A stretch of 64,000 nt of DNA from Asterochloris sp. CNOR1. Taxonomy: Eukaryota; Chlorophyta; Trebouxiophyceae; Trebouxiales; Trebouxiaceae. A program made the position numbers and the translations under genes. Every line of letters begins with the position of its first letter. The first letter of the stretch is position 1. A model generated the notes under the pieces. That model ran no database searches and was not told the DNA's origin. It saw nothing but the letters and a program-made list of their open reading frames with translations. Of this stretch, positions 155 to 64,000 are shown piece after piece. The stretch is from NCBI GenBank assembly GCA_963969365.1, contig OZ017763.1, positions 1,674,001 to 1,738,000 of the forward strand. The letters are read 5' to 3'.

Positions 155-3100
155 CTGAATAGTCGGCGATGCCCCCCATCACATCCAGGCGGCCTGGCGC
201 CCTCGTCACAATCACGTCTGTCTGCAGCTCAGGCCAATAAAAAAATGTCAGCAGACATCTGCAGCAGCACATGCTTGACAGCCATGCAGTGCTGCAGGGT
301 GCAGACAGCCTTGCCGTGAACGTGAACACAGCTCCACAGCTGCTGAGTATGACAGTGTGCGCTTCCACCACAAGCTTGCGAGCTGTATTCAGGGATGATG
401 GCTGCAGTACAGTATGGCTTATACACAATTTCGCTGCCGTCAGACACACTGCCCACCTGCCACTGGAACAGACCCCTAGCCGCCTGCATCTCGGGCAGCT
501 CTGCAGCTGCCTCCTCAGCACTCGGCCCGGGACCGCCCAAGGCAGCCAGCAGCTGCAGGAACCTGATGGTGTCAGGGCAGCGTTCCAAGCTGGCTGCGCC
601 TGCAGGGGGCGGCACAGCAAAAGTTATGTCCATGCTCCATCCAGTGCCAGCCAGCATTGCCAACTGCAGCAGGGGCAGTCATGTAGGTGCAGACATGGTT
701 GCCAACCAGCCAGGCAAGTGGGACAGTATTGGCCAAGCAGCAGCTCTGACAGCCAGAAGCGTCAGTCACTCAAGGCAGCATTGTGCATGCAGCACATCTC
801 TGCTTTGGACCACAGAACAGCCTCCGGGCCCTCCTGGAGCCACTTTCACACCACAACAGCACTCCCATGCCATCAAGCCCTATGTGCCATGTTCAACAGC
901 CTCTCACATGTCTGCAAGCCCTGTCCTCAGCAGGACAGGACAGTGTTCCCACCACAATGTAGCAGCCTCACCTTTCAGCACTTCAAAGGTGTCCAACACT
1001 GTCTTCAGTGTGGCCTGCCTTGCTTTTGCGCTGGTGGGTGATTCCCCCTGCACCTCCTCAGGTATGTCTAGGCCCCTAGTGTACCACTCTGGCACGTCCA
1101 CCTGCACTGCACGCAGACAAATGTCAAAAACAGTTGCTCATCTGGTTTCCCTGTCTCTGCTGCAGTGTGATGAATCTATAAGCTGGTCAGCTGTAATAGC
1201 ACGAGCAGCCGTGTGTGGAATGCAGGCGGATTGGCGTGGGCAGATCAGTTGAGAGACCTGCACCCTGTGCTGCAAGACGGCCAAATCAGAGGGGGCCATG
1301 CCCTTAAATCTTGCTGTGTCCAAGTGCACAGGCAGACCACTGCCTCATGAAGCTGCAGCATCACATCGGTCAGAGATCTTCATGCAAGGTGGCACCACTG
1401 GGCGCACTGACCTGGCCCCTACGAGCATTGCGCTGCATCATGTAGCCCCAGACGACAGCATCCCGCAGCCGCACCGACCCTGCCCGGCTGAGGGAGCGGT
1501 CCGGCCCTGTCCCAGTAAAAGCGGAACCATCTGTTGGGGCCATGTATCCCTTGTCCTTGGCAATCTGCAGCAGCAGCTTGGTGGCCACTGCAGCACCGTC
1601 AGTGGGCTCCCTGCAGCAGGATTGGGGTTACAGCTTGATACAGGTCCACCGGAGTGGCCACTGACACCACCATCCAGCTGAGCGGTAGAAGATGTTTGCT
1701 GAATAGGCTTGCACAGCGGTGTGGTTGCCACAGCCAGCAAAAGGGTTTTCCTGCAGCACTCTTGCAGGCCGCAATCCACTTCGATGAGGTATAGTCAAGG
1801 TCAATTTGCAAGAACCCCGGCAGCTGCCCTGCCAGGCCTTTCCCACAGCCAGCCTTGCCAAGGTTGTGATACATATCACACTGCTTTGCCCTCAAGGAAG
1901 GCCCTGCCTGAGAGGCAGCCTGCTGCTTTGGGCAAGCAGGGTTCATGCACGCTGTGCAACCACCTGTAATGGGGCTTCATGGTGGCAGCCTTCTCCAGGA
2001 AGGGTGCCCAGTTGAGCGCCAAGAAGTCCTTACGGTTCATTTCCAAGGCAAAGCCATGCAACTCCAGCAGCTTGCGCAGAAAAGGCTCCTGCAGGGAACC
2101 AACAAAACGGTTGTATCAAAGACGCGTGTGCGTCATGCAGAGGGGCTGCGCCTGCTGCTTCACAGCCAAATGTTGCCGTCAGTGCACATGGCAGAAACCA
2201 GCAGATTGATGCAAGCTTGATGTCAGCTCAGAGAGTGTTGTCCACTATGGTGCACCTCGCTGCCATCAATGCTGATACACCCCTGCTCCAGGTGCTACTG
2301 CTCTTCTGTTGTGTGTCAACATGGGCAACATGCAAGCAGCAAGCAGGGGGTGACTGAACAGCCTGCAGATGCATGTGGACCTCCTCTACGCAAGCAGATG
2401 GCGCAGGCCCTTGCATGAGGAGGTCAGCATGACTCTATTCCAGACATCCACATGGTTGCCTTCAGACACCTCTTTTGACTGGCCACATACCAAACTTGGA
2501 TTCTGGCAGCGCCCATTAGTTGCCTGTTGGCAGGGTTTGCCGAACATGTGCTCTCCCAGCAGCCATCCCTGGGGCAGCCAAAGTCATTGAACAGGATGTT
2601 GAAGGAAAGTGCCTGTGGCTGCCTTCAGTTGTCCTTGACAACCACTCTTCCACTCATCTCTGCACATCTGCACCAAAGAGAACCTCAACTTAGCTCACAC
2701 TGTGACCCGGCCCACCTCGTTGAAGAAGTCTCGCCGGATGAACACAAAGGGCTTGTTGTGCGCCAGCACCTCTGACATGGTCCCGTACCCGATCTTGCCC
2801 ACCACGCAGTCGCACGCATTCACCTGCATCAAGCACGCTGGCCATGTTGCCAAGAGATAGTGCAGCAGGCTGCCCCATGGCCAGTGCCCACTACCAGCTC
2901 CTGCCACCCTTTCCTTGGACTCCTGCATGTTGAGAAGCCTCTCTGACATGCTCGCATACCCAGTCTTGCCCATCGTGCAGTTGCATGAATTGTGCAGCGA
3001 CTGCTTGACATACTGCCCATGCTTGGCGTATCAGGCGCCTGTACACACCATGCTGCATCGGCCATGCAGGAGTGCTCAGACGCTTCAGCTGCAGGACCAC

Positions 3101-6100
3101 GGGCCTGTGACAGGCACTGGTCAGGACTGGCTGCAGTGCCAGTCAAAATGAAGATGCATGCAGCACCTCAGCCTCGTGCGCACTGGTTCTGGCCACTTCA
3201 GGTGCTCTCCCGTGGTGCACAGCATCAATGGCTGTTGCAATGGCCGGGCTTGCGCCAGCTCCACACGCACACGGCAGCTGATTAGCCTGGCAGGACCGCA
3301 CTGCCATGGCCGCAGAGCAGTACCGCCGTCTCTCACCAGGTCTGGAGTGTAGGCGTCCCCAGCAGCCAGCTGGAAGTTGGGGGGCAGGGGCTGCGCTGTC
3401 AGGGGCCGGCCCCCGCTGCAGATCACACACACCCAGCCCGGCGGCAACGTCTCCCTCGTCAGGCACCAGTTGCCTGGCGGCTGGGCGCCAAACATGAAGA
3501 GAGCCAGCTTGGTGGCAGGGTCTGGCAGTTGTAGCTCCTGTCGCACCTGCAGTACAGGAGGAGCTTGCTGGTCCTTGCAGGCCATACTGTGAATGTGACC
3601 GTGTATACGGGCCGTTCTGGGGCAGGAGCAAGTGGTCCCCAATCTGGGATCTCTGTGATGACTTCACACATATAAGAGTACTGTGGATGCCATGGGACCA
3701 CCGGAGTCAATGTAGATACACCCACCTCCTCCCGACTCCTCCTTGCGTGCCTGACCACCAGAGGCACGTCCACCACGTCCTTGAAGGCTGGCATGGGGCT
3801 GTAGCCTGGCAGCCTCAGCACCACATCAGCCTGCGACAGGTCCTCTGCCACCTGCCACACCTGCAGGGGCTACTGGGAGGCTTAGTAACTCAGGCCCGCC
3901 TGGTCATGTCTTGTGCCCAAGGCAGCTTGAGAACCACGAACCAGCCGGGGACAGGTCCTCTGCCACATGCCGCACCTGCACGAGGAACGGCAGTAAGCTT
4001 TGATCAGTGCAGGGTTCAAAGCTGGCATGGGGCTGTGGCCAGGCAGCCTCAGCACCCCATCCGCTGGGGGCAGGTCTTCTGCAATATGCCAGACCTGTAC
4101 GATGCGCAACAATGAGCCGTGATCAGTGAAGGGCTCAATGCTGGCATGCGGTTGCGGCCAGGCAGCCTGAGCCTCCGCTCAGTCTGGGACAGGTCTTCTG
4201 CCACCTGCCACGCCTTCATGTGCTGCACACATACATGAGTGACTTCAAGACCAGCACGGGGCTGTAGCCATTAGACAATCGTCAGCCTGCAAGAGGTCCT
4301 CTGCCACGCGTCAGACCCGCAGAGGGATCAGCAAGGAGCCCTGGTTGGTGAACGCTGCCAAGCTTGCTAGGCACCGCATCAGCCTGGGAAGGGTCCTACG
4401 ACACCTGCCACACTTGCAGGCCGCACAGCAGGTTGTCTGAGCTTGCTCAATAAACAGAGCACAATTCTGCAGGTGCTGCTGGGCTGAGGGACCTGGCATG
4501 ACTGCACATGTCATGCAGTGACTTTGATGAAGTGCCTGCAAACAGCTTCAGCACAGATGGGCCTTAGACAGACCCGCTCCACCTGCAGATGAAGGGTGCT
4601 GATGCTGACTGAGCAGACGTGCCGGCATGCTCAGCAAGCGTCAGCTCCTTTGATCTGCAGGTAGAACAGATTAATCTCCGGCTGGCTAACTGTGCTGCAG
4701 CTGTTTGCAGGCACCCTTTGAGTCATTGCATGACATGTGCAGGCAAGCAGTCAATGAGCAAGCACAGCAGCTGTTGAGGGCACCACCAGCAATCAGGCAG
4801 CAAGTAGACAGGCTCAGCCACCAGCTGGGCCCACGTGAACTTCTGGTGCACAAAATGTGGCCATGGGGTACGAAGTGGCTCCAAAGACAAGTCCACTACA
4901 GCCCAGCTCCTGATGGGTTGTGGCTGCCTGTCTGCAGCGAATCATTCCTGGTACACAAAGCAAACACGATGCAGACTCATAACCAGACGCAGCATCTGCC
5001 TGCCATTGCACAGGCGTATATACACCACGCAGCGGTAAGTCAGGCCCCACACAGGCCTCACATAGGGACATCTGAATTTGGCGTGCAGCTTGACATAAAG
5101 CCAGCAGAGGGAGCAGCAGCCCTCCTCACAAGGAGGCAGGCCCTTAACAGGTACGCTGGAATGAGGTGAGACATCTTGAGATGCTGACATCTTGAGAAGC
5201 CAGTTGATGGGTCTCGGCTGCTCACCATCTTGCGCCATTTGCTGGAAGTCCGGCTGCAGTACTCACTGAAGACAAAGTCTACAAGGCAGGGCGGGAGCAC
5301 TTCAGCAAGCATGTGAGCAGTTGAGTCAGGAAGGGAGGCAGATGAGCGCCATGCAGACCAGGCACATTGGTGTCGACAGAACATGTGCAATCGTATGTGG
5401 GCAGGTGTGCACCACCATGGGCGCCATGCATGCTCAGTCTGAGGCGCGGGCAAGACTTTTTTGACACAGTCTGTACCTCATGCAGTGAAAGATGGTGAAG
5501 CTGATGAACACAGCGGCAGCATGGCGATGTGAACACAGACATAGGTTGGCTAAGGTGGCGGGAGCTATCTCAGCCCACTGAAGTGACCTAAAAGCAGGAG
5601 AGCATCACCAGAGGCAACCCCCAGCTGTTGGTGGCATGCTGGAGTATCAAGCTCATGGTGCACACGCAGGGTAGAGTGATGCTGCAGGCAGCTGTGACAA
5701 GCCCAACCTGCAGACCTGCAACGTGTGGTGTGGGCTCACCCCAGCTGAAGTTGCTGATGCACACACAGGGCACCCCCGCCAACTTGGCGGCAGCGCAGGC
5801 CAGGGGAACTGTGTCAGATACCACCAGGTCGGCCCGGGTTGCCTTGAGCCAGCCCATCTGCAGGCACAGTGCACTTGCAGGCTGTAGCAACCCAGAGGTC
5901 TGCTGCTGCGCCCAGGTGGCAGCAAAGGCTGATGCAGCCGCTGCCTTCCAGAGCAGCCTGCAACCCAGATGCCACAATGGCAGCAGCCCATGCCAAAAGC
6001 TGTGCTGGAAAATCCCCCATATGCAACACAGCTTAAGGCCACACGGGTGCAACTTACTGCAGTCTGCCCACATCGAGCCGTGCAGACTGACACTTTGCAA

Positions 6101-6902: not shown

Positions 6903-7059
6903 GATCTCGGATCGCGCTCAAATTCCATCACCGCCCGAATTAAACAGCACTGCCAAGAGCCAACAGCACAGACAGCTTTCTGCATTCGAGCTCTGAGACA
7001 GGTCAGTCCTTCATTTGCCCCTAGAAAGCGGGTTTCCATATCTTGGGCTCTCTACATAA

Positions 7060-7160: not shown

Positions 7161-8025
7161 CAAGTCGACCCTGAGAGGTTGATGCCAGCTCGGTGGTCCA
7201 CCTAGTTGCTTAGTTACAGGCCTTCATTAGCCACGGATTACCTTCAGTGAGCCTCCACATTGACAGCTGTTATTTCCCTAGCTTATGCAGCAGGACCAGC
7301 TTCTCCATGCACACCTGCTCCTCTCCAATGCGCAGCTGCTTCTCCTGTCAATGCAGGTCACCAGACTCATTCTGCCAGCCATTCTGGCTTGGTGCTGCGC
7401 AGCTCATAGAAATCCATTTCCACCATGCTGATCTTGCCCTCCACAACCTCAATCTGCTGTTCCAGCGGGAAAAGCTCATGAGTGGTAACCAATGTGCTGG
7501 ATGCAGCTTGCAAAAAAAGGACACAGAGCATCGGCAGCACCCTGAATCTGCAATACAGTGAGGAATCTCAGAACAGCCAGCAGCTTCACACGCTACCAGC
7601 ACTGCCTTTTCACCTCAGTGTCTGCTTGAAGGGAGGCGTCCTCATGCAGGATGTGCTTGTGGACATGGGCCCGGGTGATTGGCCTGCTGAAAATTGATCA
7701 TAGCAAACCTCGCTGTTGACCTCCTCTGAACAGCTTGGCTTGTGTGACCCATGGGCCTCGTAGAGTTCAAGCTGTACTGCAAGGTGCTTGCTTTTATCTG
7801 TCAGCCTTATAGCCAAGATGATCTGGTGGATGCCTTCATGCATGTCTACACTGCGTCAACCCCAGCACCCATCTTCTCAAAGGTGCCTGTGCTTCATCAG
7901 TGGTTCACAGAGGCGTACTGTATGATTGAGCACATGAGTTCAAAGAAGGGCAAGGCGTCCTGCACGAGGCCCAGACAGGATGTGCCAGGCTGAGACAGCA
8001 TGACATGTACATCAGTGATGGGCCA

Positions 8026-10433: not shown

Positions 10434-10785
10434 GCCTGCAGCCACCAGCATCGAGAACACTCCAAAATGGGAATCTAAGCCTCTTTGTTCATAGGTGCAC
10501 ACCATGCAGCACAAGGCACTGACAGCAGGATGTGCACACCTGCACAGTTGGTGTGGAAGTGCTCAGTTCGCTGCTGACCACTGCTTGCTGACGGCAGAAC
10601 CGTGCTTGATGGTAACAGTTTGCGACTGGCAGAGACTAAGAAGATGCAGATATGAAAGCAGCAGCAGCGTATTTCTGCTGCCTGCAAGGGCCTCCCAAAC
10701 CCTCGGTACTACTTGTCTTCCGACCTAATTGCTAGGTCAAATAACCCTAGCGCGCCAAACCAGACCGACCCACCACCACCCACCC
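10434..10785. promoter_or_regulatory. shared 5' region between two divergent genes
   Basis: These 352 bases separate the minus-strand nuclease-like start (10433) from the plus-strand recombinase start (10786). They would hold both promoters. I see no clear promoter motif or repeat. Confidence 0.3.
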
Positions 10786-13999: not shown

Positions 14000-14084
14000 G
14001 CATGCCTTTGTTTGTTTGCCGAAACTTTCATTGACGATTCCTACAGCCGTTTGAATGAACAGGTCAGTCTTTTCTGCTGAAAGT

Positions 14085-15502: not shown

Positions 15503-15543
15503 GGTGTTTCAAACAACTTCATGATCTTGTAAACAAGCTTGCT

Positions 15544-17013: not shown

Positions 17014-20000
17014 ATGCATTTAACTGCACCCACTCTGGGAGCGCACAAGTGTGCACCAAGGCTGTGGCAGGTGCGGAGGCTGGTGTGTCTTGCATAGAAG
17101 CTACTGCCTGAGCTCAAAGACCCATGAGGGCAACTGGGCCACGCAGGGCAGGAGGAGTGGGGCAGTCAGGCATGGCGCCAGCCAGCGGCGCGCCATGGTG
17201 GTTGCAGCTCTGCCAGCAGCCAACCCCTATGCTGAGGAGCTGAGGAAGACAGCTGGTCAGCCCCTGCTGTGCTGCTTGAAGAGGGTCAGGTGCACTTGAC
17301 AGCGGGCAGCTCCTCCTTCTGCAAAGCAACACGACAGCTCCGGGCTGGGCAGTGCTAGTTTCCAGAGAGGGTTCGTATTGGGGCCAATTTTTGTCAAGTG
17401 CACTGGTGCTGGCCGTGAGTACACGTCATAGCAGCCAGCCAATCACTGCAGCCCATGCTGCTGAGGCCACCCCCCAACATCGCATGATTGGTGTTGGCCA
17501 GTGAGCTCCGGGGATGGCAGCAAAGCTGCTGCAGCAGCTGCTCATCTGCTAGACAGCAGCAACACTTTGCTGGTTTGAGCACCGCAGCACGTTCCTGTGC
17601 CTTGTGCGGGGCCATATGCACAGATCACTTCCTGCATCATGCAGGGTACATAGCAACTCGCGGCAAGGGCATCCTTGCATCTGATGAGAGCAATGCTACC
17701 ACTGGCAAGAGGCTGGCCGTCATTGGTGAGTCCTGGAGGCTAGCAGTGTTCTTAGGTGGCATGCTTTGCATCGATGCATCTGACAAGTGGCAACACCTCG
17801 CCAGACTGCCGTCTTCTGCTGAAGCATCTTTCTGTGCTACCTTGACAGTTAGAAGCATCTCTGTGCAGCCTGGGATAGCTGCTCTTGTACACCTGGACAG
17901 AGTCTGTGGTGGCAGAGCGCCTGAAAAAGACCGCCTGCTGCGGACCTCGGTTCTGACAGGTTGCCTCGAAAGTTTGCAGGGACAATTCAATTTCATCTGA
18001 TGTTTACCCTGCATATGCAGCATGAGAATTAGTTGCGGCCAGAAGGCTGCCCCTGCCTGCAGGCCTTGAGCATGGCAAGTGTTTCTCATGCTCAAAAATG
18101 TTGATAGTAAACAAAGCTGTCTCCTGCCTGGTCAGCTCAGGGCAGGCAAGGGCGACTCTGCTTTTGAAAGAGAGTCGCTGCTGTCCTGGCTGCAGAGTTG
18201 GACAACACCGATGACAACCGCCGAGACTGGCGGGAGCTGCTGTACACAGCTCCTGGCCTGGGCAAGCACATCTCAGGTGAGCACATTATTGCTACACGTT
18301 GGCATGCTTATGCTAGGCCCACACACCGCTGGGCTGGTTAAGCCAGTCTCAGGGGAGCCCTTCGCCTGTGTCTCTGCTGGGCACACCCTCTTGCAAGCAG
18401 CTCGCCAGCCACAAGCCGTTGCCAGCCTGTCTGCACACATGCTGCACTCACAGCTCACACTGATGCCAGGGGCATTCATGCAGGTGCCATCATGTTTGAG
18501 GAGACCCTGTACCAAAGCTCTGCAGCTGGCAAGCCCTTTGTGGACATCCTGCGGGAGCAGGGAATTGTCCCGGGAATCAAGGTCGACACCGGCCTGCAGG
18601 TAGCTGGCATCCTTGCACACGCTGCTTGGCAGGATGCAAGTCAATGCCAAGGAACCTGGAAGCAGGCGGGGGCTTTGACCAGGCATCAAGGTTCCCTCAT
18701 GCAGCCACGTCAGCAGGCTGTATCCTGGCAGCTGCTGTTTGACGGACTGCAGAAGCTGCATTTCACAGCTGACAAGAGCACGATGCCGTCAGTGATGAGG
18801 GAGTACAGACTTCCTAACGCCTGCATGATTTCAGATGGGGCGCCTGCTGCCAGCATCAGTTGGCGCAGATGGCTTTTGCTCCCATTCAGTTGTATGCAAC
18901 CTTGAGGTCACTCTGCTGACCTTGTTTGTGCAGGTGCTGCCGGGCACAGATGACGAGACCAGCACCCAGGGTCTGGACAACCTGGGCTCCAGATGCGCCG
19001 AGTACTACAAGCAGGGTGAGCCCTCACACTCACCCAGTGTCTTGTGTGTGCTAGGGATGAGAGCGGGCCAGCGTGTTGAGGTCAATGTATAGGCGGGGGA
19101 TGTTTGCTTGCTGGCAGGCAGCATTAGCAATCCTGAAGACGTCCGTGGCATGCTCTGCCCAGTGGACTGCCAAGAGCTCACTGTCACAGGTTGGTGGGGA
19201 GACCTCCCACACCGGCAGCTTGCTGATTTCTGTAGGCAAAATCAAAGAGGGCTCTTGCTGAACACAAGCACATGCCGCAATGTCTTTGCAGGTGCCCACA
19301 TTGCTAGAAGGAGGGCAGTGCTGTAGATTGACAGCAGTTGGCGCCTCAATACATGCTGCAATAAAGCTAAAGGGGCCCACTCTGCCGATCAGACGGCGGT
19401 GCTAGAGGCCAGCAGCATCTGCTTCAGAAGGGCCTGCAGCTGTGCTTCTACCTTGCCAAGTGGTGCTGGAGATTGGCAGCTTGTGCCCTTCAACATCTCC
19501 TGCAATTGCCCTTGGCAAGTGATTGCCTGATAGGAGGCGTTGGCTGCAGCCTGAATTTGTCTTGTTGCCGCTGCAGGCGCTCGCTTTGCCAAGTGGAGGG
19601 CAGTGCTGAAGGTTGGCAACGGCTGCCCCTCGACAATGGCGATTCTTGAGAATGCCCATGGCCTCGCCCGCTATGCGCAGATTGCTCAGGTATACTGGCT
19701 CCGGTGGCCTGCACTGCACATGCTGGGAGCTGCTGATGCTCACTCACCACAGAATGTTCCGGCTCACCTGCAGCACTTCTGATGTACCAGCAATCTGTCT
19801 CTGTTGCTGGAACAATGGCAATCTACAAAGGCCTGGCAATTCCGTCAAAGTGGCTTTCTCCTGTCCTTTGCCCTCATTGGCAGCTGGGAGACCATGTGCT
19901 GCACCACTTGGTGCTTTTGCGGCATCTTCTTGACCGCGCACAGTGACAGCCCTGTGCTCGCTGTGGATCTGCTGAGTGTTACCACCTGCAGGCTATCCAG

Positions 20001-23000
20001 CCTGCCCGAGAACAAACTGCAGCACCTGGCTCCCACCTGCAGCATGCTCAAATAGCAGTCCTCAGCAGCTGCCCTGATCTAGCGCCCATGGTGGAGCCAG
20101 CCACTGTCTAGTCTGCCACCAACTGAGCAGCAACCCTTGATGCAACGCAGGACAACGGCCTGGTGCCCATTGTGGAGCCTGAAGTCACATTGGGGCCTGG
20201 CGACTATAGCATTGAGGAGACAGCCTACTGGTGAGCCCACTGGTCCATTCTTCTTCCCTGTGCTGAGCATTGAGGAGACAGCCCACTGGTAAGCCCTGCC
20301 CTGTTGGTGTTGCGTGTTATACTTAGCTTGTCTTTTCAGGACTGGTGGCGGCCTGTTTGGCCCTCTGCTGGTGGGTTGCACAGCTTTTGGCTGCTCACAC
20401 AGTTGTGGCTGCTCAGGGTCGGTGAGTGTACCAGTCCTCAATCAGTCCCAGCCTTGTCCATGATCGACCTGGGATCATTGATGCTTGTGGTGGAGCCACG
20501 ATTGATGATGTCTCCGGGTAACAGCAAGCATGGACATCTGCTCAGCATGTCCCTCTGTCCCAACTCACACAACAGCATGGTCAGCTGCTGTGCTGCACCG
20601 CTTCGAGCTGCGCAGGGCTCCTGTGAGCTGCCGCTATGACACAGTGAGAACACCTCTTGTCCCTTTGAGTAGCTGTTTTCGCTGGAGGGCAAGCTCTGCC
20701 TCGGTGTCCAGCCATTGCCTGCATGCTGCACTGGTCAAGGTGAGGTCCATCATCTCGTCATGCAGCTGGCACACTGATGGCGGCCCACCTTGCGGTCTCT
20801 GTGGCACCTGAGCACACCCCTGTGCATGCTGCTGGCCCGCACAGACATCGGAGCAGGGGTGCCTCCCGTCATACAGGCTTCAGCATCGGGTACCAGGATT
20901 CAGCCATTTGCTTGCCTGGTGCAGGTGGCAGTCAGACATGCAGCAGTGTTAGGACCCTGCCAAACATTTCATGTCACAGCTGCAGCATGGCAGCACTCTC
21001 AGCCGCTGCCCTCATGCCCAACACGTGTGGCTGCATGCAGGTCTGAGCGCACATACAGCCACGTGATGAGGCTGCTAAATGAATATAACGTGGACCTCTC
21101 AGGCATCCTGCTGAAGCCCAACATGTGCCTGCCAGGTGGGCAGCTGCTGCTGTATGCCCCTGTGACAACAACAAGTGGCATGCCCCTGCGCGTTGTCCTG
21201 GCAGGAAACTGACTCGAGGGCGTTGTTGAGTGGTGGTTCAATAACAGAAAGCCCAGAGGCTACCAGTCCATGCTTGAGCACCTGACATCATGTGTTGAGC
21301 CCCTGTGACAGCAGTGAGTGGTCTGCACCTGCTGATTGCCCTGAGTGCTGCCAGCAGCCTTGGCAGGCGCCTTACTGAAGGGGAACGGCTGCCTGTCCGT
21401 GCTGAAGCGCCTGACGTCATGCTGAAGCCCAACAGTATGCCTATCAGGTGGGCAGGTGCTCCCTTTTTGGGGCTGCTTGTTGCTCAGGCATGGGAGAGGG
21501 CCAGCTTTTGTCTGCCAGAATCATGCTGCGAGCCAGCACCCCTCTGACCAACATTTTGATAATTCGAGCCCAGCCGATCACCATCAGAACAAGATATCAT
21601 GGTGCCTGCACCAAGGTTACGGACACTCTCATGCCCAAGTGCAGGAGTGCTGGACAGCTTAGAGACCTGCCGCGCAAATGCCTGCAGGGCTGGGACCCCC
21701 TTCTGGCTCCTCAGAGAGGCATGGCCATCATGGGTAGCAGTCTTGTCTCCTGCGTGTCAATCTGCTGCCAAAGTCAGACCCTCAGTGATCAGACTTCACT
21801 GCCTGCCTGTAGGTCTGGACGCTCCCTCTGCCTCCCCTGAGGATGTCGCAAAGTACACTGTCCGGACGATGCTGCGCACCATCCCTGGCGCCGTCCCAGG
21901 TATCCACTTCCTTTCTGGCGGCATGAGCGCAGAGGAGAGCACCCTCAACCTGCAGGCCCTACAGGTCAGTGTGGCCGTGAACTCTGGCAGCAGTTTGCCA
22001 TTGGCTGGTGCGAGTTTAAGCCAGGATCTGCACCATCTGGCAGCGGGAGCAGAGATGCTGTTTCGCTGTTGAGACAGTCTCAAGATGGTGCAAAGCCGGG
22101 AGGGTGCAAAGCTGTGGGTCTGACTGGGTTAGATGGTGACGAGAAGATGCTAGACGCTTTGCCTGTACAAAACATTGGCAACATGTCGTACAAGGGTTCA
22201 CAGGAAGCAACACTTGGCAGAGCACCCATGGCTGCTGTTGAGATAATTTGGCACTGGCAGGCCCTCCCTCTCAGCAGAGTGGTGCTGTTGGAGCTGTGGG
22301 GGTTTTCTGCGCCCAGCCTGCAGGTGTTGCAGGTCAGTCTGGGGGCAGGCTGTGATGTGAACCGTCCCCTGTGCCAGCTGGCTACCAGGCCTCACAAAGT
22401 TTCTCCTGTGTGGTACCCCACAGGTACCAGAACTGCAGTGCGGCTTACCTGCCTGCCTGCCCAGATGCATGCGAGAGCGCAGCAGCTCATTTGCATCGTG
22501 CCTGTGGGTCTGTCAACATGGTGCCTGAATGCGCTGCACATGCCCATCTGCTTACTCTCCACTTCAGTCAACTTCTCACAGACTACCGGACCCTGCAGGA
22601 CGCCTGCCCAGATGCGCCATGGTCGCTCACCTTCTCATATGGCAGGGCACTCCAGGACAAGACCCTGAAGGTTAGCGGGCTGAGCTTGTCTATTGTGGCC
22701 AGGAGGAGTTGCCTTACTGCGTGGGTCGCAGTGTGCCTTACAGGGACTGCTGCTTTGTCTATGCCTTGCATGCTTGTAACTGGCTGGCTGAGGTGCTTTC
22801 CAGTACCCTGAAAGGCTCAACAGAGGTAGAGAGGCGCTAGAGGCGCTCCAGGCTGAAGTAGTGATCTCTTTGGCATTTGCAGACCTGGGGAGGCAAGCCT
22901 GAGAACAAGGCTGCAGCTCAGGATATTCTGGTGAAGCTGGCAACAGCCAACGGGCAGGCACAGCTAGGCCAGTACTCTGGCCCTCACCCAGCACCTGGCA

Positions 23001-26453: not shown

Positions 26454-29400
26454 TGGACGAAGTACAGACGCAGAGGGTGATATCCCACATTGACCTCGAT
26501 GCCTTCTGTGAGTCCCAGCATCATAGCATGCCACCTTCAAGCAGCAGTGGTGTGCATCCCAGCACTGAAGCTTCAGCTCCTGACTGCAGATACTCAAGTT
26601 GAAGTGAAGCGAGACCCCAGCCTCCAAGGGAAGCCTGTTGGGGTTGTCCAATATGTGAGCCAGCGCACTGCACTGCCACCTCTGGAAGGACCATGCAGCT
26701 GAAGCCTTGTGCTCCATGCAGAACCCATTCGGCGATCTAAGGACGATCAGGCCTGATGAGGACCGGAAATTTGCTCACAGCAATGGGAGTCTCATTGCAG
26801 TCAGCTATGAGGCGCGGGCAAAGGGCGTCAAGAGGTGGGCTGAGCTAGCACAACGACATGCAAGCAGCTGCAGCTGGACTGCGCAGACTGCTTGGTGTCA
26901 CTGGACTCAGGTGATGGCATGGCTCAGCGCAGCGCAGCGTAACACAGCACGCTCTTTCATCTAATGCCACTACGCTAGTCGGTCGCCTCACCCTGTCATC
27001 AGGTTTCTCTGTCTCTGTCACACAGGCATGGCACTGTGAAAATGCAGCCAGCCAGCAGCCTGTTTACTTTGCTTGACAGGCATTTTCTCCCAATAAATAT
27101 GCAGGGGTGCGTCAAGGGGATTCTGCCAGCAGAGCAGACCCACTACCAGCCAGTAGAGAGGGTCCACGCTGCCTGACATTAGTGGTGCTCCCTGCTTCTG
27201 CAAGTGCTGCTGCAGGATTGCACGGCAGCCACTGCGAAGAGGACTGCCCCGCGCATTTACACAGCGTGGAAGCTTGAAACTGCCTGATGTGCTTGGCTGC
27301 ATGTGTGGCTGGTCCCAAGGGGCAGCTGCCTGTAGTGTGTGCCGTGGCCGGGCTACAAAGGCATTGCATGTTGCCTGATGGCGTGCTGCAATGCAGCTAC
27401 AGGTGCATGGGGAACCTTGCTGGCTGGAGGTCTGCGAGGCAGTGCCCCTCAGCGAGGCATGAAAGGCAAGACGCAGCATGCCTCAGCTGCAGTGCTGCCA
27501 GGTTGTCTGCGGCCTCCAGACCTGACAGGCTTGCTCCCCATGTGCTGTTGCAGGAACATGAGGGGGGATGCTGCCAGGAGGGCGTGCCCCGACATGATTT
27601 TGGTGCAGGTTCCAACTGCGCATGGGAAGGCAGACCTGACCATCTACCGCGAGGCAGGCAAGCAGGTGGGCTGGCGCATCGGCAGTTCCAGGCAAAGGGC
27701 GCAGACTGGTGCTCATTGTGCAGGGGAAGGCTCAGCTGACCATCTGCCTGAGGCAGGCAAGCATGTAGGCTGCGGCTTTGGCCATGTGAACATGGGGCCA
27801 CAGGATGTCTGGAGGACGTGATGGCACCTGGACACCTGTCCACTTACAGAAGGCACTCCTCTAGGCACATGGGGTGGCACAGAAGGACTGAGACCTTTGC
27901 CATGCCAGCCAGCCAGCCACAAAGCGGCGTCTAAGATCCCCTGATGCCTTGCCAATCTGCAGAGAACTCTTGCCAGCCGTGAACCCTGCTGCACCCTCTG
28001 CTGTGAGCACAGTCATGCCCCTGTAGGCATGTGTGAATCGATGGTGCCACTTCCATCAGCAGATGTTCTCTGATGTAGGCATCTTGCATGCAGTTGCTGG
28101 ACGTCACAAGTATGCTGGCTGTGTGGGTGCTGTTGAGGCATCAAGCATCAGCTTCCAAGCATCAACATCAAAGTACACTCCATTCCGTCTCGCAGCTGGA
28201 CCTGGTCGTCCTTGTGCTCCTGCAGGAGGGAACACCTCAGCACACTGCCTTGTCGTGGATGAGCTTAGTATCAGTGCCAGGCCTTTGCTGAAACCCTGGG
28301 GTTCCACTGGGTCACACTCCTCCGCAGGTTCTGGACATTCTGGGGACAGTGGCAATATGTGAGCGCGCCAGTATTGACGAATGCTACCTGGATTTGACAG
28401 AGGAGGCCCACCGTCGCTTGGCGGCTGCTGGGGGCTCGCCACTGCTGCCAGTCAACCCAGAGCAGGTCCATGTTGCCCGTCTGGTGAGCTGCGGCAGCTG
28501 TGAACGGGCTTGCAGTCCTCTTTGCATGAGAGGCAGATGTTGAGCGAGCCTGACAGCTGCTAGGAGCCAGATCAAGGGTTGCATATGCAGTTGTCAGCCT
28601 GGGTGCTTGCCGCTGTGGCCCATCAGGCCATAACAGGTATACATGAACCGCCATGAACCTGTTTGATCTAAGCTGGGCGTGCTCTGTCCTGCACTTCAGT
28701 CAACGTCAGCAGGTCAATGCAGATGCATGGGCTGCACCACGTGCTGCAAAGACTGCATTAGCAGCCCTGATGCTGTCTGCTGGGGGCAGGCAGAGCGCAG
28801 CAGCACACAGGAGTCTGTTGTGCAGCAGAAGTGCTGCTCAAAACTGTGATCAGACTTGACCTTCTTCTGATTGTTGCTAGCAGGCATAGTGCGGCTGGAT
28901 GCTGGGAGATGATGTGCGTGCCCGCCTGAGAGGATCACCCTTGACATCGTGCTGCTCCTATATGCAGGCAGGGGCCAGTACCACAGCAGAGTGGTGGCAG
29001 CGCCCAGCTGAGGCGTGGCAGCCCGGGGAGCGCCTGCTGGCTTGCGGGGCCGTGGCTGTGGCTGACCTGAGGGCGGCGGTGGCCGCGCAGCTGGGGTACA
29101 GCTGCTCTGCAGGTGGGAGGCAGTGCCCCCACCCCTGCCTGCCTCCTTGCCACGCCGCATGCTGCCATCCGCTGCTTGCCAGGAGGTGCAGGCTCTGGAC
29201 CGAACGGGGCACCACATGCGCATCTGGATGCCATTGACCCATTTGCTGCAGGCCTGCACATGACCCCCCCTCACACGCCCTCAGACCCTACTGACTGCTG
29301 CAATCTTGCCACCTACAGGGGTTGCGCATAACAAGATCCTGAGCAAGCTGGCCTCAGCGCTGCACAAACCCTCCCAGCAGACCCTCGTGCCGGCCAGCGC

Positions 29401-32400
29401 CATCCCTGAGCTGCTGCAGGACCTGCCCATCCCCAAGCTCCGCCAGCTCGGAGGCAAGTTTGGCGAAGAGGTGAGCGAGTCAACAATCCGCACAAGGGTT
29501 CCCGATCCCCATGCAAAGCTGCTTCTTACCAGTTCCAGGAGATATGAGGGTTGATTACTGAGGTCCCTGACGGTGCACATTTAGACTCAGACAGCGCGTT
29601 CAGTGAAAAGCAGCCCGTAGCCTGGGGAGGGGGCTTGGCAAGGGCGGCTGGAGCAGCTCAGCATCGTAAACAACTGCTGGTGCACTTGCTTGGGCCAGTA
29701 CAGTGTATCTGCACCACCTGTGAGCGGGACAGGGTGCTGAGAGGTCCAGTCATGGCAGAGTGCTCACAGCAGGCTGGGAGGTTGCTGACATGGTGCACAA
29801 GAGAGGGTGCCAGGGGGCATGGTGCGGAGCTGCAGCACCCTCCGAGGGACATGTCTGAGGTCGCCGCGCATGCCAAGTGCTGGACTCCCTGCTTGGATAG
29901 GCTGTGGTTGCTAATCGGGAGCTGAACTAGCAGCTGAGCAGGTTGGCATCTGTCCCAGGCTCACGTCGGGCCTCAGGACTCATGCAGACCCGCCCCTTGT
30001 TGCAGGGTGTGGCATCCTTGCATGCACATCAGGCCTCACTCAATGGTAGCACGGCACAGAGCTCAGCTGGCGTGTTCAAGTTATGGGCAGCAGTTTGGTA
30101 TCACCAAACACATCTGACTGCTGCTGTGCACAGACCCCTGACCTGCTCATGTCCACAACAGCCTGTCCCTGCTCTCTGCAGGTGATGGCGGCATTTTGTA
30201 TCAAGACAGTAGGTGGGAGACGGCTGCTCATGCCTGCACCTGACTGCCATGTTTGCAGACTGGTGCTCTTGAAAATGTTGTGCTGGTTTGGGGGATGCAT
30301 CAACCTGTTTTTGAGGCTCCTTCTACAAGGAAGGCATGCAGCTCTGGAAATATTGTGCTGGTTGGGGAGGAGGATGCATCAACCTGTTATTGAGGCTCCT
30401 TCCACAAGGAAGGCATGCAGCCTGCTATGCCTTCACATTGCTACTGGGCGGCAAGGAAGCTGCAAATGCCAGCACCTTGCGATGCACCTGGACGGGTGGC
30501 TGCAGGACAGCTGGCGGCGCTGCCCATCCCGCGCCTAGAGACACGCTTCAACGAGGCAGATGCCCAGTGGCTCTACAAGCTGGCGAGGGGTTGCGATACC
30601 GAGGAGGTGGGTCTGAATGCCGTCAATCTTGCCAGCTGGTGTCGTCGCCATGCTGCTCACATTCTCCTGGCCGTGCTGTTGTCAATGTGAACCATACATG
30701 CTGCATAGCAGGGGTGGATTGGGGAGAAAAAGGGGAAGTAGGCCCAGGAGTGGTTAGTGGAATAATGACAGATGCAGCTGGCATGCTGCTTGTCGCTGCT
30801 GACAAGGACGAGCGAGAAGCCGTTCCACCGCCAGAGTGTGCTGGCCATTGACTGGTCCCTCAGCTGCTGCCACCTGCGGGAACCGACGGTCATTGGTAAA
30901 ACGCGTGCTTGCAGATCAAGCAGAGAACGCTGCCCAAGTCCCTCAGCTGTGGGAAGACCTTCCGCAGCCAGACTGCGCTGACCAAGATTGATGACGTGCA
31001 CCACTGGCTGGCGGAGCTGGGCAAGGAGCTGGCGGAGCGCGTGGGGGAGGACAGGTGGGCATCAGGGGGTTTCTCTCTGGGTCTGAGCAATGAGAGAACT
31101 GAGTGGGGAAGCTGAGCTGTGGCTGTGTCTGTGGACGCATGGGCTGTGGCTGGGTCAGGGTCGTGCTAGGGTCGCCAGACATTGATTGTTGAGTAGAAGC
31201 TGGTAGTGGGCGGCTGAGGACAGGTGGCTGCCCTGGAGCCCTGCTAAGTGGCGGGCCTGAGGAGTCACAAGGCTGGCCGATTGCATGGCTGAGAAGTCTG
31301 GCTGTGTTGTGGCGCTGCAAGGTTGCGTGGCTGGGACCCTTATGGCTGGCAGCGCTGTTCAGAAACTTTTTGGAGTGTGCGGCTGTGGTTGAGGACGAGT
31401 CAGGACCAGGTTGCAGCGGTGTGGGAACTGGGGGAGGCACACAGATGGGGGCTGGGGGTTAGGCTGGGTGTGCGTCTTTGGGCTGTGCAATGCTAGCAGG
31501 GAAGCTGGGCAAGGGCTGGCATGGGTGTGTGTAGTGTTGCAGAATGTGTGCATAGGTAGGGTGGTGTGGGTGAGGACTACCAAGGCTGATGGTTGCATTT
31601 CACGGCTGTTGGAGCGAGTGGCTGCAATCAGGTGGGCTTGACGCACTGTCCTCCTCAAAGCATCGGGCAGCACTCATAAGCTCTGCTGCGCAGAGAACAG
31701 GGCGCAGAGGAGGGCTCAAAAGTGCTGGCTGGGCCATGGGCCACATGTTTCTGCTAGCAATGCAAGACTGGGGAAAGCTGCTGCTCACAGCTGCCCAGGA
31801 GAGTGCATATCTCCTGCTGGTACTGTAATTGCCAGACTCAAATGGTCACACAAATGGTGTGGCTGCAGAAAGCCCCCCTGCTGCTTGCCCCAGCCTCTGT
31901 GCCCAGTCACTGACATGGTCTTGTCTGATCTTCAGCACAACCATCTGCAGGTATGCTGGTGGCTGCAGGAGGGCATACATTTACCTGCCAAAGTGATCAT
32001 CTGGTTGAACTTCATGTCATGTGCTTCCATGTACACAGCTGCCCTGCGGCTGCAGGAGGCCATGTGCCCTGCAGGAGGCCATGCGCCCAGCTGACGCAGC
32101 TGCTGAGAGCCTACATTTGGCCACACCAGGCCAGAAATTTCCAACAGCTGCCCTGTGGCTGCAGGAGGGCACATGCCAGGCTGCTGCAGCTGCTCATCTG
32201 GACAGTTTGCTGCCGAATTCACAGCCGCCCTGCAGCTGCAAGAGGTCATGGGCCCATCTGCTGCAGCTTCTGAGGGTCTCTGTTTGGCCGTGTCAAGCCT
32301 CGGCACTGTTAAAGAGCTGCCCTGTGGCTGCAGGAAAGCGCATGCCAGGCTGCCGCAGCTGCTGACGGTCTCCATCTGGACCCATCCTGGCTCTAACCCC

Positions 32401-38134: not shown

Positions 38135-41100
38135 ATGGGGCGCTCTTTGGACATACTGAGCAGCTTCAGGAAGAAGGAGAGGGTCCCAAGCAAGGCAGAG
38201 GTCGCCAGCCCTATGGAGCTCAGCACAATTGGGGCTCAGCATGGGACATATAACAACCCAGAGGCCTCACCAGACTCTTTCAATGACAGAGTGGAGCAGG
38301 TGATGCTGTTGCTGGTCATCAAGCTGCCTTGCCGCGTGACTGAGCCAGGCCACATTGTACAGCATCCTGCTGGGGGGCGCTGCTGGCGGTTGCAGACTTG
38401 AAGGGGTCTGGCAGGCCTGCAGCCAGGCAGGCATCAGTGATGTCCCTTACTTCAGCCAGCTCCAGCACCCCAATATGCTCGTGCCTCAAAGTGACCCAGG
38501 TCAGACCATTGTGGGTCAGCAAATGCCAGGCTGCAGGTGGCTCCACCAGGTCGCCTTGATGCACTGCGAAGCGCACCAGATCAACTGGAACATGCTGAAG
38601 ACAGAGTCATGCTGCAGGTCACGCAGATCAATAGTGACGTCAACCGGTCCATGAATCGCTCAGCATCGCGGCGATCCTCCCGCACCTCGGACGCCAGCCT
38701 CCCGGGACCTATCCTCAAGCATAGCCCCTCCCTGCTTCGGCGGACCACCTCCCTCGTCAAGCAGCCTGTGCTGCAGAAGACGCTGTCCAAGTGAGTGTTA
38801 TGCTGTGTCCCCTGAAGCCGGTGGCTGTGAATCGTGTCACAAAACCTGCGCTTGAGCGCCTCCCTGCTCCTTGTGCAAGCAGCCTGCGCTGCAGAGACCC
38901 TGTCTCCCAATGAGCACCCTGCCTTGCTTCATGTGATCAGGTGCTGGCCCCCAGCAGAGCCCCTCCCTGCTGCGGCAGAAAACCTTTCGCCAAACAGCCC
39001 TTGCTGCAGCAGCGGCTGCCCATGCTTGCACCTGTGACATCGCTTGCAAATGGGCTGGAGGGAGCAGCTTGTCTCGCCAGAAATGCTGTCGAGAGAATTG
39101 CACCACCTTCTCTCAGAGCAAAGTGCAGCCACCACGTGAAGCAGCAGCTCCATGGTGGGACAGGGAGTGTTGCGGAGGCAAAGGCTGTTGAGTCAGAACT
39201 GTGCACCTCACTGCCAGAAAACCAGCCAAGTGCCGAGCTGTAGCAGCATTGCAGCAGAAGAAGTCAGTCGCCATTCCTGCAGCGCAGCCTGTTACCTTGC
39301 ATGAGCTTACAAAGCAAAGGTGCTGAGGCTTGAGTGACGTCACGCTTCAGGCTCCGCCACCACATCGCTGGTCACACAGTGCAGCCACAGTGCACCATAC
39401 AAGCTGTGCTATGACTTGCATGATGATGCGCTCCAGGACTCCTGCTCCACTCCTGCTCCACCTGTCCCTGGATGTGGCGAGTATGTCCCAAAAGTGACCG
39501 TGATATGTGTTCCCCAACACTCTGCAGCGCTGCTCACTTCCTGTCGCTCCCTGTGGTGGAAACTTCTGCAAGCTCGTCTGCGAGTGCAGTCTCCCCAGTG
39601 CGCTGCAGGACTGCCCACTACCTGTCGCTGGTGGTGGCAGAGAACCCTGTTGAGGCCCACAGGGAGTGGAGGCGCAAGCAGGTGGGCACATGGGGCTGGC
39701 CTGTCACTGCATTGGCGAGGACTGCTGAGCCAATGTCGAAATGCCCCTGGTGCAAACAGAGGTGAGGCCAGCAAAGGTGCACCCTGGGGGGGGTGGGGTC
39801 AGGACTCCTTCATACCTGCACGTGCCGATTGAGTTGAGACTTGCAGGGGCGTTGTTGAGGGGGCGGCCAGCAGTGTTTTGGCATGCAGAGTGCTGACTGG
39901 GAAGCTGCAAAGTTTGTGGGGGGATGGAATGATTACTTCTGAGATGCCTGCTGCAGGTCGGGAGTGAGATTGCTGCGCGTCTGGGAGTAAGGCTGAAGTC
40001 TGGCGGGCTGCATGGCGCCATTGCTTACATCTGGAATGCTGCTGCAGACGGAGGGTCCAGAGCTCTCAGGAGGAGACCTGGGGTCTGGCAGGCTGCTGTG
40101 TCTGTGGCAAGACAGTCAGCTCACCCACAGGGTTCCCGTTCAAGGCTATGTGGACTGAGCTTGTCAATCTATCATACCTGAGCTGCCCCAGAGTGTGGCA
40201 GGCTGCATGGCAGCATACTCTAAAGCTGACTTTTGCTGCAGACTGAGAGTGAAGATGCTGAGCTCCCGGGGGGGGACCTGGAGTCTGGCAGGTTGCATGA
40301 TGGCCGGCGGCGCACCAGCGAGATAGGCCGGCGCCACACCAGCGAGGTTGGCGAGTACCCAGGCCGGCGCACCAGCGACCTGGAGCTGCACATGCTGGAG
40401 GAAGGTCAGTGATCTGGACACCAACCTCCTACATGGGGGCTGTGCCTGGACAGGTGCAGGCACATTCATCTGTTGGCAAGCGCAGCAAGCTGGAGGTCCA
40501 CAACTCTGGAGGAAGGTGAGTGAAATGGATACCACTTCTGTGCATGGGGATGTGCCCAGGACCAAAGCAGGCACATGCAGCTGTCTGCAAGTGCCCTGCA
40601 GCAAGATGAAGGTGCACATGCTGGAGGAAGGTCTGCGACCTGGACACCAGTGCCACACATGGGGCTGTGCCCAAACAGGTGCAGGCACATCTAGCTGTCT
40701 GCAAACCCCCCGCAGCAAGCTGCTGAAGGTGCACATGTTGAAGGAGGGTCAGTGAGTCAGTAGACTCAGGAAGGGATTGCGACAAAGGTGGAGTCACTCT
40801 GTTTAATTGCAGTCAATACCACAGCAACCTGCGGCAGCACATACGGCTGCGACTCTGGTGTGCAACCGACAAGTATGTGCTGGCTGCATGTGCATGCAAT
40901 GAGACTTTGAGCTCTGAGCAGCTGTGCAAAAGGGAACTTTAAGAAGGCTAACTGCTGTTGCTGCTGGCTTGCGACCTGACCCCTATCAGTGCTTGAGCAC
41001 GGCCAAAGCACTGGAACGGGGGTTGGCCAGTGCTTGTTGCAGAGAGAGCACGTGAATCCATTATTTGACGCAGTACCCAGCGCAGCTGCAACCCTGCGGT

Positions 41101-46561: not shown

Positions 46562-49500
46562 CTAGTGGATATGCAAGACAACACCAGGACGTGCAATGCA
46601 GTGACCATTGTTCACTCGCATGCTGCACCTGCGGTACCAGTCGCGGCAGCGCTGAGGGTCAAAGGCCTGGCCAGACTGCTTGTACAGGTTGGAGTAGAGC
46701 GCCACCACCTGATCCTCATCATTCATGCCCCTGCATGCACCATTGGCATGCCATGGGGTTGCAGTAGCTGTATGATGAATCCTTTGCATTGCAGAAACAT
46801 CACAGACTGTCATTGTCAGTGCCTTTAACAGCATGTGGCAGTCAGGAGGGTACATAGCACCAGATGGCTGCCTGCAAGGACAATCAATCAGCATAGTTCA
46901 GGCCGTGCTGGCAGCTTGCGCAGGCCTTCGGAGTGAACGTGGTGTCTGCACTCAGGAAGCTGCGGGAGCATGCAACGACTTGGCCTGGCCCTGCCAGTGT
47001 CTGTGTGCCCCTGGATTGCTGCTAGTGCAAGCAGTGCTGGCCTGCCCACAGCTGAACCAAGGGCTGGCAGAGGTGTTGGGCTGTTGCAGAAGCTTGGCCC
47101 CCCTGAGAGGCACAACCAAAGGAGCCTGCAGTTGCACACAGGGCAGCAACAGCAGCATGTGGTCAAGTCCACAGCAGGGACAAGTGAAGGTGCTCACATC
47201 CCTCGTCATCTGCGACGAGGCAGGCGCTCTGCTGCCCAGGCAAAGCGCAGGCAGCCCCAGCGCCCCCTCATATCTGCTGCATGTCCATCTTGAAATTTAT
47301 CAAGTGGGTTCATTACACTTCCCCCGTGCGCACTCCAAGGCCAGGGCAAGCGTTGTTGCTGTCAGCAGGACAGACAGCCCCACCCCAGCATGTGCTGCAT
47401 GGTCATCATGGCGTTCATCACTCCCTCAAAGGTTTCGTGCTAAGGGCAGAGGCCTGATCGCATGCAGCAGACAAACTGCAGGCAGCCCCAGCTCACCCCA
47501 TCATCTGCTGCATGGCCAGCATGGGATTCATCAGAGGGTTCATCATAGGGTTCATCATGCCCGCCATGGGGTTCATGCCCATCATCGGATTGATCATTGC
47601 CCCCATGCCCATGCTCATGCTCAGGCTGGGGGCCGCACCGCCTCCGCCGCCAGCGCCATTGTCGGCGCTGCCATTGAGGCGCCTGCTGGTGCCAGCTACA
47701 GGGGATGCCCGTCTGGCTGCAGCCTGGCGGCGGGTGTCCTTGATCTGCACACATGCAGCAGTCCATCAGGCATGCTCAAGGCAGAGCTGTGAGAAGTGCA
47801 GGTGCCGAGAATTCTGTGAGAAGCCTGCGGCCACATGGACATATGGGCAGCAATGCGCAGGGTGAAGGGCAGGACATGGCCACACTGGTAGGGGCAACCT
47901 GGCACCAAATGTCCATGACATGGACCAGGCATAACAGGCAGATACCAGCCCAAAATGGTCAATGAGCCCGCAGCCGCATGCAGGCAGGCAGCAAATTGTA
48001 TGGCCAAGAAGGGGGCTACTCAGCTGGAGCTTAGAGCTGCCTGTCTTCAATCAGGACAAAAGGAGCTTCATGCTGTTGAGCAGCAAGCCCCTGCAAGCCC
48101 GCTGCGCATACGGTCTGCTCTGGGACAGATGGCAAGCTTGAGTCACTGCACCAATTGGTGTCCCAGCAGCAGTGAGAAGACGCTTGACCAGTGCATCCAC
48201 ATGGACAGCTGTGAATCTGAGAACAACCATCAGCCCCATCGAACATGTCCCCCTAAGTGGTAAAGATTGAGGAGTGCAACACGCTCACAGCAACCCTCCA
48301 GGGTACTGGAAATGCCAGGGGCTCACCCTGTCAAACACGTCCCCATACTCTGCGTAGTCCATGTCGAGGAAGTTGGGGCGCTGCCGCTCACGGCTCCTGC
48401 TGCGGCTGCGGTGGCGGTGCCCTCGCCGCTCATCCCTCTGCCAGTCAGGGCTGCTGCCTCGCTGCCTGCAGCACGGTGAGGCAGTGGAATGAGTCAGGCC
48501 TGGCACACTGCTAGCCCTCTGCCAGGGCAGGGCTGCTGCCTTGCTGCCTGCACAGTGGTGGAGTCAAGCCTCCTGCAGTGAAGCCAAGCAGTCAAACAAG
48601 GGCCCTGGTGCGCTGTCCTAAACCTAGGGTACCCCTCCTTTGATACTCTACTGGTATCCCAGAAGTGCTGCTGTGTCGCTTGCCCTCAGAGAGACTGAGG
48701 GCATGCAGACCAGCACCCTTGCCAGCTCCACCAAGGTCTGCTGGAGCATGCTTAAAGGCAGTTCTGCCATTTTCATGCTGTGCGTGCAGCGGCCTGTCTC
48801 ACAGGAGACTGGTCCAGGCAGGGAGGCAGTCGGGTCAAGTGCGTGAGGGCTGCCTCAGGCCATGCATTCGTGCAGCGCGTCCCAGGCAGCAACCTGGGTA
48901 CACTACGCCATCTGGCGGTTTGTCTAAACATGGTTTCAATCCTCCCAGCCCCTCTTGCTTCTGCCACCAGATACATGCTGCTTGACACAGACATGCAGCA
49001 TCCACAGAACAGTGCAGCATTCTGGAGCGCAGGTGGCACCTGCTGCGAGACATCTGTCGTCCTGGAGACTGCCGCCTGACGTTCCTATCATGCGCTTGTC
49101 GGTCGCCATCATACCTGCAGCAGCATAGCACTCCTCCTCGATGGCCGTCTGCAGTATGCATCATAAGCCTGCTGCTTGAAAGCCCCAGCGTATTGCTTGC
49201 CAACAGCCTCTTGCGGAATCCTGACGGTGCTCCTGACGATCTTGTGGGCACCATTGCTCAAAGTCTCTGCGAACCTATCAACCACAACATGGCTCTTCCT
49301 GGTGATGGGTTGTGGCCAGACACCCTTGCAGTCACTTGCTGGATGGGAGCCCGACATACATGAAGTGTAATGAAGCTCTGCACACCTTCCCCCACAGAGC
49401 ACAAAGCTGCACACTGGAGCAGTCTGGCCCACCTGCTGCCTTGCAGCATGCCTGCTGAACCATCCCCTGCTCCAGCCTTCCGACTGAGCTCGGCCATCCC

Positions 49501-53152: not shown

Positions 53153-53347
53153 GGCTGGTGACTGACAATCAACTTGTCTCCGCTTAGCAGCCTGCTTGGG
53201 GAGCTAGGACAGAAACTGTCAATGCCTGTTGGCAAGCTCAACGCGCTGATGCCTCCTAGTGCTCAGCAGGTGTGCTGGTGCCTGTGGGCAAGGCCGCTTG
53301 TGCTCGGACAGGAGGCTTCAATGGCTTACCAGGCCGCAGGCTACTGT

Positions 53348-55045: not shown

Positions 55046-64000
<8,955 letters not shown>

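Follow-up and report, generated by a model that had tools for sequence, protein, structure and literature searches.

How introns become long in the compact genomes of algae is an open question, and it is raised by a 64,000-nucleotide stretch of Asterochloris sp. CNOR1 (C18:1674001-1738000, hereafter the window), several unrelated genes of which have introns that contain diverged copies of the adjacent exon edge. An earlier note on this DNA had read these copies as traces of a continuing, genome-wide process that lengthens introns and had related them to intron gain by tandem duplication. For Asterochloris glomerata, a genome of 56 Mb with a mean of nine introns per gene has been published; the word 'tandem' does not occur in the main text of that paper in the form available (PMC6652019).

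The genome searched comprised 56.4 Mb in 21 contigs. Thirty stretches of 10 kb each (20 + 10) were sampled at fixed positions on contigs C1-C18, giving 364 kb together with the window. A small gene finder was trained first on 264 kb and later on all 364 kb; its first versions, which fused neighbouring genes and came to predict minute exons, were dropped. Final figures are from the 364-kb version, and every exon border is an ab initio prediction by this gene finder. The model at 52354-54258 (+) overlaps the YTH gene on the opposite strand; therefore, some predicted borders are wrong. The reliable set comprised 307 of 593 predicted introns, selected by flanking exons both of at least 30 bp, a coding score of at least 4, and GT-AG ends. 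The donor consensus of the 364-kb gene finder was CAG/GTGAG and the acceptor consensus CTGCAG/G. In the 364-kb gene models, the extended acceptor TGCAG/G was strong (T 0.92, G 0.95, and C 0.97 before AG). CTGCAG is palindromic, and the core acceptor motif can therefore be read from both strands.

Local direct repeats, defined as ungapped HSPs with a score of at least 20 at a distance of 30-1000 bp, numbered 69 in the window and 211 in the 364 kb, against 2 in five dinucleotide-preserving shuffles combined. Local inverted repeats of the same score within 1 kb numbered only 8 in 364 kb, counted one per antidiagonal. At least one direct HSP was present in 25 of the 30 sampled loci outside the window. 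TRF independently found four arrays in the window, with periods of 119, 111, 88, and 78 bp. In alignments of the main arrays, the acceptor or donor recurred together with adjoining exon bases, with substitutions and indels between copies.

The introns were searched for copies of their exon edges in two ways. In the ungapped test, the first or last 50 exon bases were compared with the exon's own intron at a score of at least 15, and 47 of the 307 reliable introns had an edge copy; the control on foreign introns gave 2 matches in 1842 tests. In the gapped search, an exon edge plus 30 intron bases was used with introns of at least 90 bp (278 of the 307), and 92 edge copies were found in 63 of the 307 reliable introns: 54 of the acceptor edge and 38 of the donor edge. 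Both sides of the intron were affected, with acceptor-side copies in 41 introns and donor-side copies in 27. A score of at least 20 was reached by 67 edge copies in 50 introns, while foreign introns yielded 1 match in 556 tests, at score 17, and none at 20. The shuffles, the foreign-intron controls, and the inverted-repeat control rule out chance or composition as the source of the copies.

Exon-edge copies in the introns of unrelated genes are thereby confirmed, and they extend genome-wide as far as sampled: by the ungapped test, they were present in 34 of 251 reliable introns outside the window and in 13 of 56 inside it. Within the 364 kb examined, this excludes both outcomes that the earlier note had named as fatal to its reading, namely no excess over controls and restriction to the window.

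The identities of the genes in the window mostly agreed with the names first given to them. The spliced aldolase model was 99% identical over its full length to protein P0001 of JGI Astpho2, a label that we take to denote Asterochloris. A viral-contig scan with the aldolase found no relative. Two possible acceptors of the aldolase lie 9 bp apart (21813-21822); the model takes the first, and the resulting exon at 21813 adds three residues absent from the annotated Astpho2 protein P0001. The models of DHX16, rhomboid, and polymerase eta agreed with known proteins or Pfam, and the YTH gene was located on the minus strand, where the final gene model is wrong. The gene containing exon 3726-3860 (-) is presumably arabinokinase; the submitted part of its model had no Pfam match. 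Three models between this gene and the aldolase also lacked a Pfam match at E 0.01. The features of the window are collected in Table 1.

Table 1. Exon-edge copies, tandem arrays, and gene models without a Pfam match in the window (positions within the window).
Feature	Position	Strand	Basis or remark
Arabinokinase (presumed) exon, acceptor and start duplicated	3726..3860	-	Gene model, alignment
Arabinokinase (presumed), five decayed upstream copies of acceptor and exon start	3861..4431	-	TRF, alignment; copies of exon 3726-3860 at 115, 234, 353, 456, and 553 bp upstream; copy 'exon starts' 3975, 4094, 4213, 4316, 4413
Copy of start of exon 2716-2823	2936..2991	-	77% identity
Aldolase, donor-edge copy in intron 18277-18483	18321..18358	+	Score 17, at cut-off
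Aldolase, three acceptor-edge copies of exon 19577-19689	19287-19347, 19366-19422, 19453-19495	+	
Aldolase, donor-edge copy of exon 20151-20230	20266..20296	+	58 bp away, 94% identical
Aldolase intron 21136-21812, donor-edge copy and acceptor-edge copy	21417-21460 (donor), 21679-21716 (acceptor)	+	
Polymerase eta, donor-edge copy of exon 27554-27665	27708..27782	+	Alignment
Young intron-only tandem duplication	30265..30421	+	Period 76, 94% identical, 2-bp junction overlap
Polymerase eta, two donor-edge copies of exon 32334-32490	32632-32702, 32788-32833	+	
Donor-edge copies of exon 38618-38790	38867-38904, 38958-39022	+	Intron 38791-39608
Acceptor-edge copy of exon 39609-39681	39511..39559	+	Likewise intron 38791-39608
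Rhomboid, 111-bp array, donor edge of exon 40242-40404	40405..40755	+	TRF, alignment; donor after 40404, copies at 111, 226, and 343 bp
Two upstream copies of start of predicted exon 47468-47733	47237..47420	+	Alignment; exon in earlier gene model, dropped from later one
DHX16, two copies of acceptor and start of exon 62128-62347	61888..62088	+	Alignment; acceptor 62128, copies at 90 and 227 bp
DHX16, two copies of acceptor and start of exon 62720-62821	62553..62671	+	TRF, 78-bp period; acceptor 62720, copies at 78 and 156 bp
TRF array	3942-4215		119 bp period
TRF array	40373-40755		111 bp period
TRF array	61415-61577		88 bp period
TRF array	62558-62749		78 bp period
Model without Pfam match	7367-10451	-	E 0.01
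Model without Pfam match	10786-13999	+	E 0.01, first 523 residues submitted
Model without Pfam match	15544-16604	-	E 0.01

The intron at 3861..4431, with its five copies, is outside the set of 307 because the neighbouring upstream predicted exons are only 9 bp long. In protein-checked genes, edge copies were found in 4 of the 8 introns that the aldolase has between 17255 and 21813, and in 4 of the 7 introns of DHX16 in the part from 59630 on. The rhomboid-gene intron 41297-42132 contains a fragment of eukaryotic large-subunit rRNA (41430-41615 (+), Rfam RF02543, E 5.9e-19), for which a DNA search found this sole genomic place; since the fragment has an exon tail on one side and the copy of that tail (41840-41890) on the other, it may postdate that duplication. 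The youngest edge array seen lies outside the window, at L012:545-748 (68-bp period, about three copies, 94-97% identical), and a large 401-bp duplication with 88% identity was located inside predicted exons at L011:6233-6995.

When all 210 gapped pairs were assigned to classes and compared with circular shifts, pairs of an exon edge with non-exon sequence were in clear excess (88 vs 40.2 +- 6.2 expected). Pairs of an exon inside with non-exon sequence were near expectation (30 vs 27.7), as were intergenic pairs (29 vs 34.8), while intron-intron pairs (47 vs 69.8) and especially exon-exon pairs (16 vs 37.6) were depleted. In these class tests, pairs scoring below 20 were excluded, and exons shorter than 25 bp or with a coding score of 1 or less were not treated as exons. 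The contrast was weaker with the earlier gene model of 264 kb (60 edge pairs vs 38.0 +- 5.9 expected), which also showed no depletion of exon-exon pairs (32 vs 34.0 expected). Intergenic arrays (18 in 77.5 kb) were rejected as a neutral yardstick because this class is probably contaminated by unannotated exons.

Distances within pairs were most often 65-140 bp, with 94 of the 210 pairs falling at 65-139 bp; this mode was clearest for edge pairs, and distances of intron-only and intergenic pairs were broader. The earlier note had put the spacing mostly at 75-120 bases. Most of the remaining pairs lie at greater distances, one reason being that non-adjacent members of one array were also counted.

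The presence of edge copies depended strongly on intron length. By the ungapped test, none of the 69 introns shorter than 150 bp had a copy, compared with 3 of 66 at 150-250 bp, 13 of 81 at 250-400 bp, and 20 of 66 at 400-700 bp; among introns of at least 700 bp, 11 of 25 had one. This dependence supports in part the proposal that the copies lengthen introns. The connection with intron gain was not supported: among introns of at least 90 bp, none of the 92 copies had the geometry of a new intron formed from a duplicated exon piece, as in Rogers-type intron gain, with a copy period within 12 bp of the intron length. The process thus looks like the growth of existing introns.

We consider it probable that small tandem duplications across splice sites lengthened existing introns and were tolerated because splicing stayed with the site that leaves the protein intact. 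The duplications, head-to-tail and in most cases of 65-140 bp, would have hit many genes of the alga. A unit spanning a splice site would create either a second acceptor and exon start upstream or a second exon end and donor downstream. As a rule, one of the two sites would restore the protein, purifying selection would hold splicing there, and the other copy would become part of the intron. Each event would make the intron longer by one unit, the copy would then decay neutrally, and repeated events would produce arrays whose copies, up to about five in number, are of graded age.

The repeats have the properties of small tandem duplications, being direct (211 vs 8 inverted), head-to-tail, and locus-specific: 207 of the 210 copies had no match elsewhere in the 364 kb, and 3 matched at E 1e-4. 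Five clean young two-copy arrays were available for inspection of the junctions. In three of them (30265 and 62853 in the window, and L007:6918), the copies abut with overlaps of 2, 1, and 2 bp, and the other two had values of -5 and -24 bp (L002:7127 and L011:6233). Judged from this footprint, the mutational mechanism may have been the repair of staggered breaks or paired nicks. In roughly half of the pairs, the copies are separated by more than one typical unit or do not abut, which calls for later indels, lost copies, or non-adjacent array members.

The same locus specificity makes it very improbable that the arrays are a transposable element, an introner family, or an ordinary minisatellite that sits in introns by chance. 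A few short-period arrays (27-59 bp) do exist, and a 37-bp minisatellite at 7059-7155 matches L001, being among the very few units shared between loci. Against this, the units include the adjacent exon, and the sequences of two of them, searched genome-wide, had no match besides their own exon (3900-4440) or outside their own array (DHX16, 62553..62671). Neither these two units nor the 210 copies in the 364 kb showed one sequence spread over many genes, as an introner would.

Duplication followed by neutral decay is consistent with the fate of the copies. The graded decay described in the earlier note was borne out: mismatches were spread nearly evenly over codon positions (0.225, 0.204, and 0.263), 33 of the 92 edge copies had a net frameshift, and the substitution spectrum was ordinary (ts/tv of 1.14), CpG sites decaying faster. 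The pattern of decay is that of noncoding DNA. Among 64 copies covering a splice site, AG or GT was lost in 15 and intact in 49; in 43 of these 49, the use of the site would add a stop or a frameshift, which bears on the suggestion in the earlier note that the copies may offer new splice sites. The claim that only one copy per array keeps the reading frame is therefore nearly right, the exceptions being 6 of the 64 copies. Splicing probably ignores most of the copies, judging from these sequences, and they do not seem to be retained as coding exons in the manner of tandem exon duplication.

Selection on the copies was considered in both directions. Destruction of decoy sites by selection was rejected, because AG and GT were retained at least as often as other dinucleotides: AG in 27 of 35 copies vs 90 of 136 other AGs (p 0.31) and GT in 12 of 15 donor copies vs 28 of 62 other GTs (p 0.02). 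There is thus no sign of decoy purging and a weak hint of donor retention. This retention of GT would also be expected if selection maintained the copies as decoys, as alternative splice sites, or as splicing enhancers, and 6 of the 49 copies with an intact site would be frame-compatible if used. We regard such selection as unlikely, since AG retention did not differ significantly, decay was almost independent of codon position, and the splice sites of the copies scored lower than the true ones (a mean of 2.9 vs 8.6 for acceptors and 3.5 vs 6.4 for donors). Strong motifs in intron interiors also lacked a consistent sense-strand enrichment (168 sense and 147 antisense acceptors; 187 sense and 217 antisense donors).

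The ages of the duplications qualify the claim that the process is continuing. Deconvolution of the identities of the 92 edge copies gave a ratio of recent to older rates of 0.36 (5-95%: 0.11-0.71); the process has therefore slowed but has not clearly stopped. Identity above 85% was found in 10 of the 88 edge pairs, whereas a constant rate predicts about 40%; in reliable introns, such pairs made up 18% of edge pairs. The claim is thus only partly supported, being weakened by the scarcity of recent duplications relative to a steady rate. Repeat-induced hypermutation as the reason for the missing young pairs was ruled out by the ordinary substitution spectrum.

The shuffled-intron null proposed in the earlier note cannot separate a process specific to exon edges from random duplication combined with exon conservation. 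We therefore used simulations, which depend on assumed values for exon constraint, indel rate, and unit length (near 100 bp) and were run with several settings; the result of this attempt was mixed. Intron-only arrays were few in the data (17 vs 85 exon-involving). Of the reliable introns, 47 had edge pairs (6 of them also intron-only pairs) and 5 had intron-only pairs alone, an excess that tops the simulations without edge preference. A plain random model with a constant rate fails, predicting about 41 intron-only introns per 53 with edge pairs.

It is quite possible that there is no edge preference at all and that duplications were random and mostly old (more than about 0.25 neutral changes per site), with pairs that include a conserved exonic copy remaining recognisable for longer, while intron-only pairs faded. 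When only duplications older than 0.25 were simulated, the exon-involving share was 0.82 (observed 0.83), the ratio of edge to inside pairs was 195:68 (88:30), the intron extent was at least 20 bp in 0.42 (0.42), and the median scores were 31/27.5/25 (32/24/27). The age deconvolution also agrees with a slowed process, and in reliable introns the mostly old model gave 48:10, closer to the observed 47:5. The age cut-off was, however, chosen to fit, and settings with a trickle of young duplications gave exon-involving shares of only 0.60-0.71 in one set of runs and 0.65-0.68 in another. The model also yielded too few young pairs (5% vs 18% observed), longer mean introns (424 vs 334), and too short a tail of intron extent (75% and 90% quantiles of 30.5 and 53 vs 56 and 121). 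With the deconvolved ages, the predicted ratio of edge to intron-only introns was 1.9, not 9.4. Real copies had shorter exon parts than simulated ones (median 39 vs 65, KS p 5e-8), and their intron parts were relatively better preserved than predicted, being no more diverged than their exon counterparts (exon higher in 12 of 21 vs 56 of 66 in simulation).

Because of these misfits, an approximately four-fold preference for splice sites, in formation or in survival of the duplications, is a realistic possibility, for example if breaks cluster there or if a second splice-site module does no harm or even helps. Thinning the intron-only events to a quarter gave 66:13 (a ratio of 5.2); the observed numbers were 47 introns with edge pairs and 5 in which all pairs were intron-only. 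The exon part of the copies is confined to about 24-69 nt (10-90%), and the intron part is preserved as well as the exon part. On the other side, a preference becomes largely unnecessary under the old-age model, clean young events are few, and the gene models are ab initio. A mechanism that would direct duplications to splice sites at the DNA level is not known to us. Only tentatively do we suggest that introns of this lineage grew mainly by the copying of a 25-70 nt exon edge together with its splice signal, with a bias toward splice sites in duplication or survival. If this doubtful proposal were true, introns would record their own splice sites layer by layer, and splicing would have kept choosing the true site among look-alikes some 60-600 nt away, many of which carry an intact AG or GT.

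With or without such a bias, the probable lengthening event is still visible in about one in five of the introns examined (63 of 307) and, among the 25 longest, in 11. The neighbouring exon serves as a reference for dating each duplication, and the loci are natural experiments in splice-site choice, in which the real site stands next to duplicate acceptors or donors whose age and strength are known. A literature search by title or abstract start found no description of exon-edge copies filling introns. Both the mutation and the tolerance shown by splicing are of a known kind; the form, many existing introns grown by copies of exon edges, is one that we did not find described.

In a study of internal gene duplications, duplicated exonic or exon-intron segments were reportedly retained in the gene product. 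Such duplications are reported to be common and to interact with splicing, as in the alga; there the segment is in the gene product, whereas in the alga the copy is noncoding debris and lies within the intron. Introners, reported in 5% of the species searched, are likewise a genome-wide process that changes introns, but they are interspersed copies of one element, whereas the units of Asterochloris are locus-specific (PMC9860276). Small tandem duplications arising from the repair of staggered breaks by Pol alpha-primase/CST and end joining are short and head-to-tail, like those of the alga (PMC8355091). They were obtained in mouse embryonic stem cells with induced breaks and 43-bp overhangs, while in the alga there is a sequence footprint alone, typically of 65-140 bp and mostly old. 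Core-Reinhardtinia, another group of green algae, likewise have conspicuously long introns, without a short-intron peak and with the cause left open; the passages of that paper examined say nothing of exon-edge copies (PMC8226300). In the RdRp gene of potato, a tandem duplication crossing an intron-exon boundary, as in the alga, made a new intron (PMC4974935); that is one case of a new intron, whereas in Asterochloris many existing introns grow.
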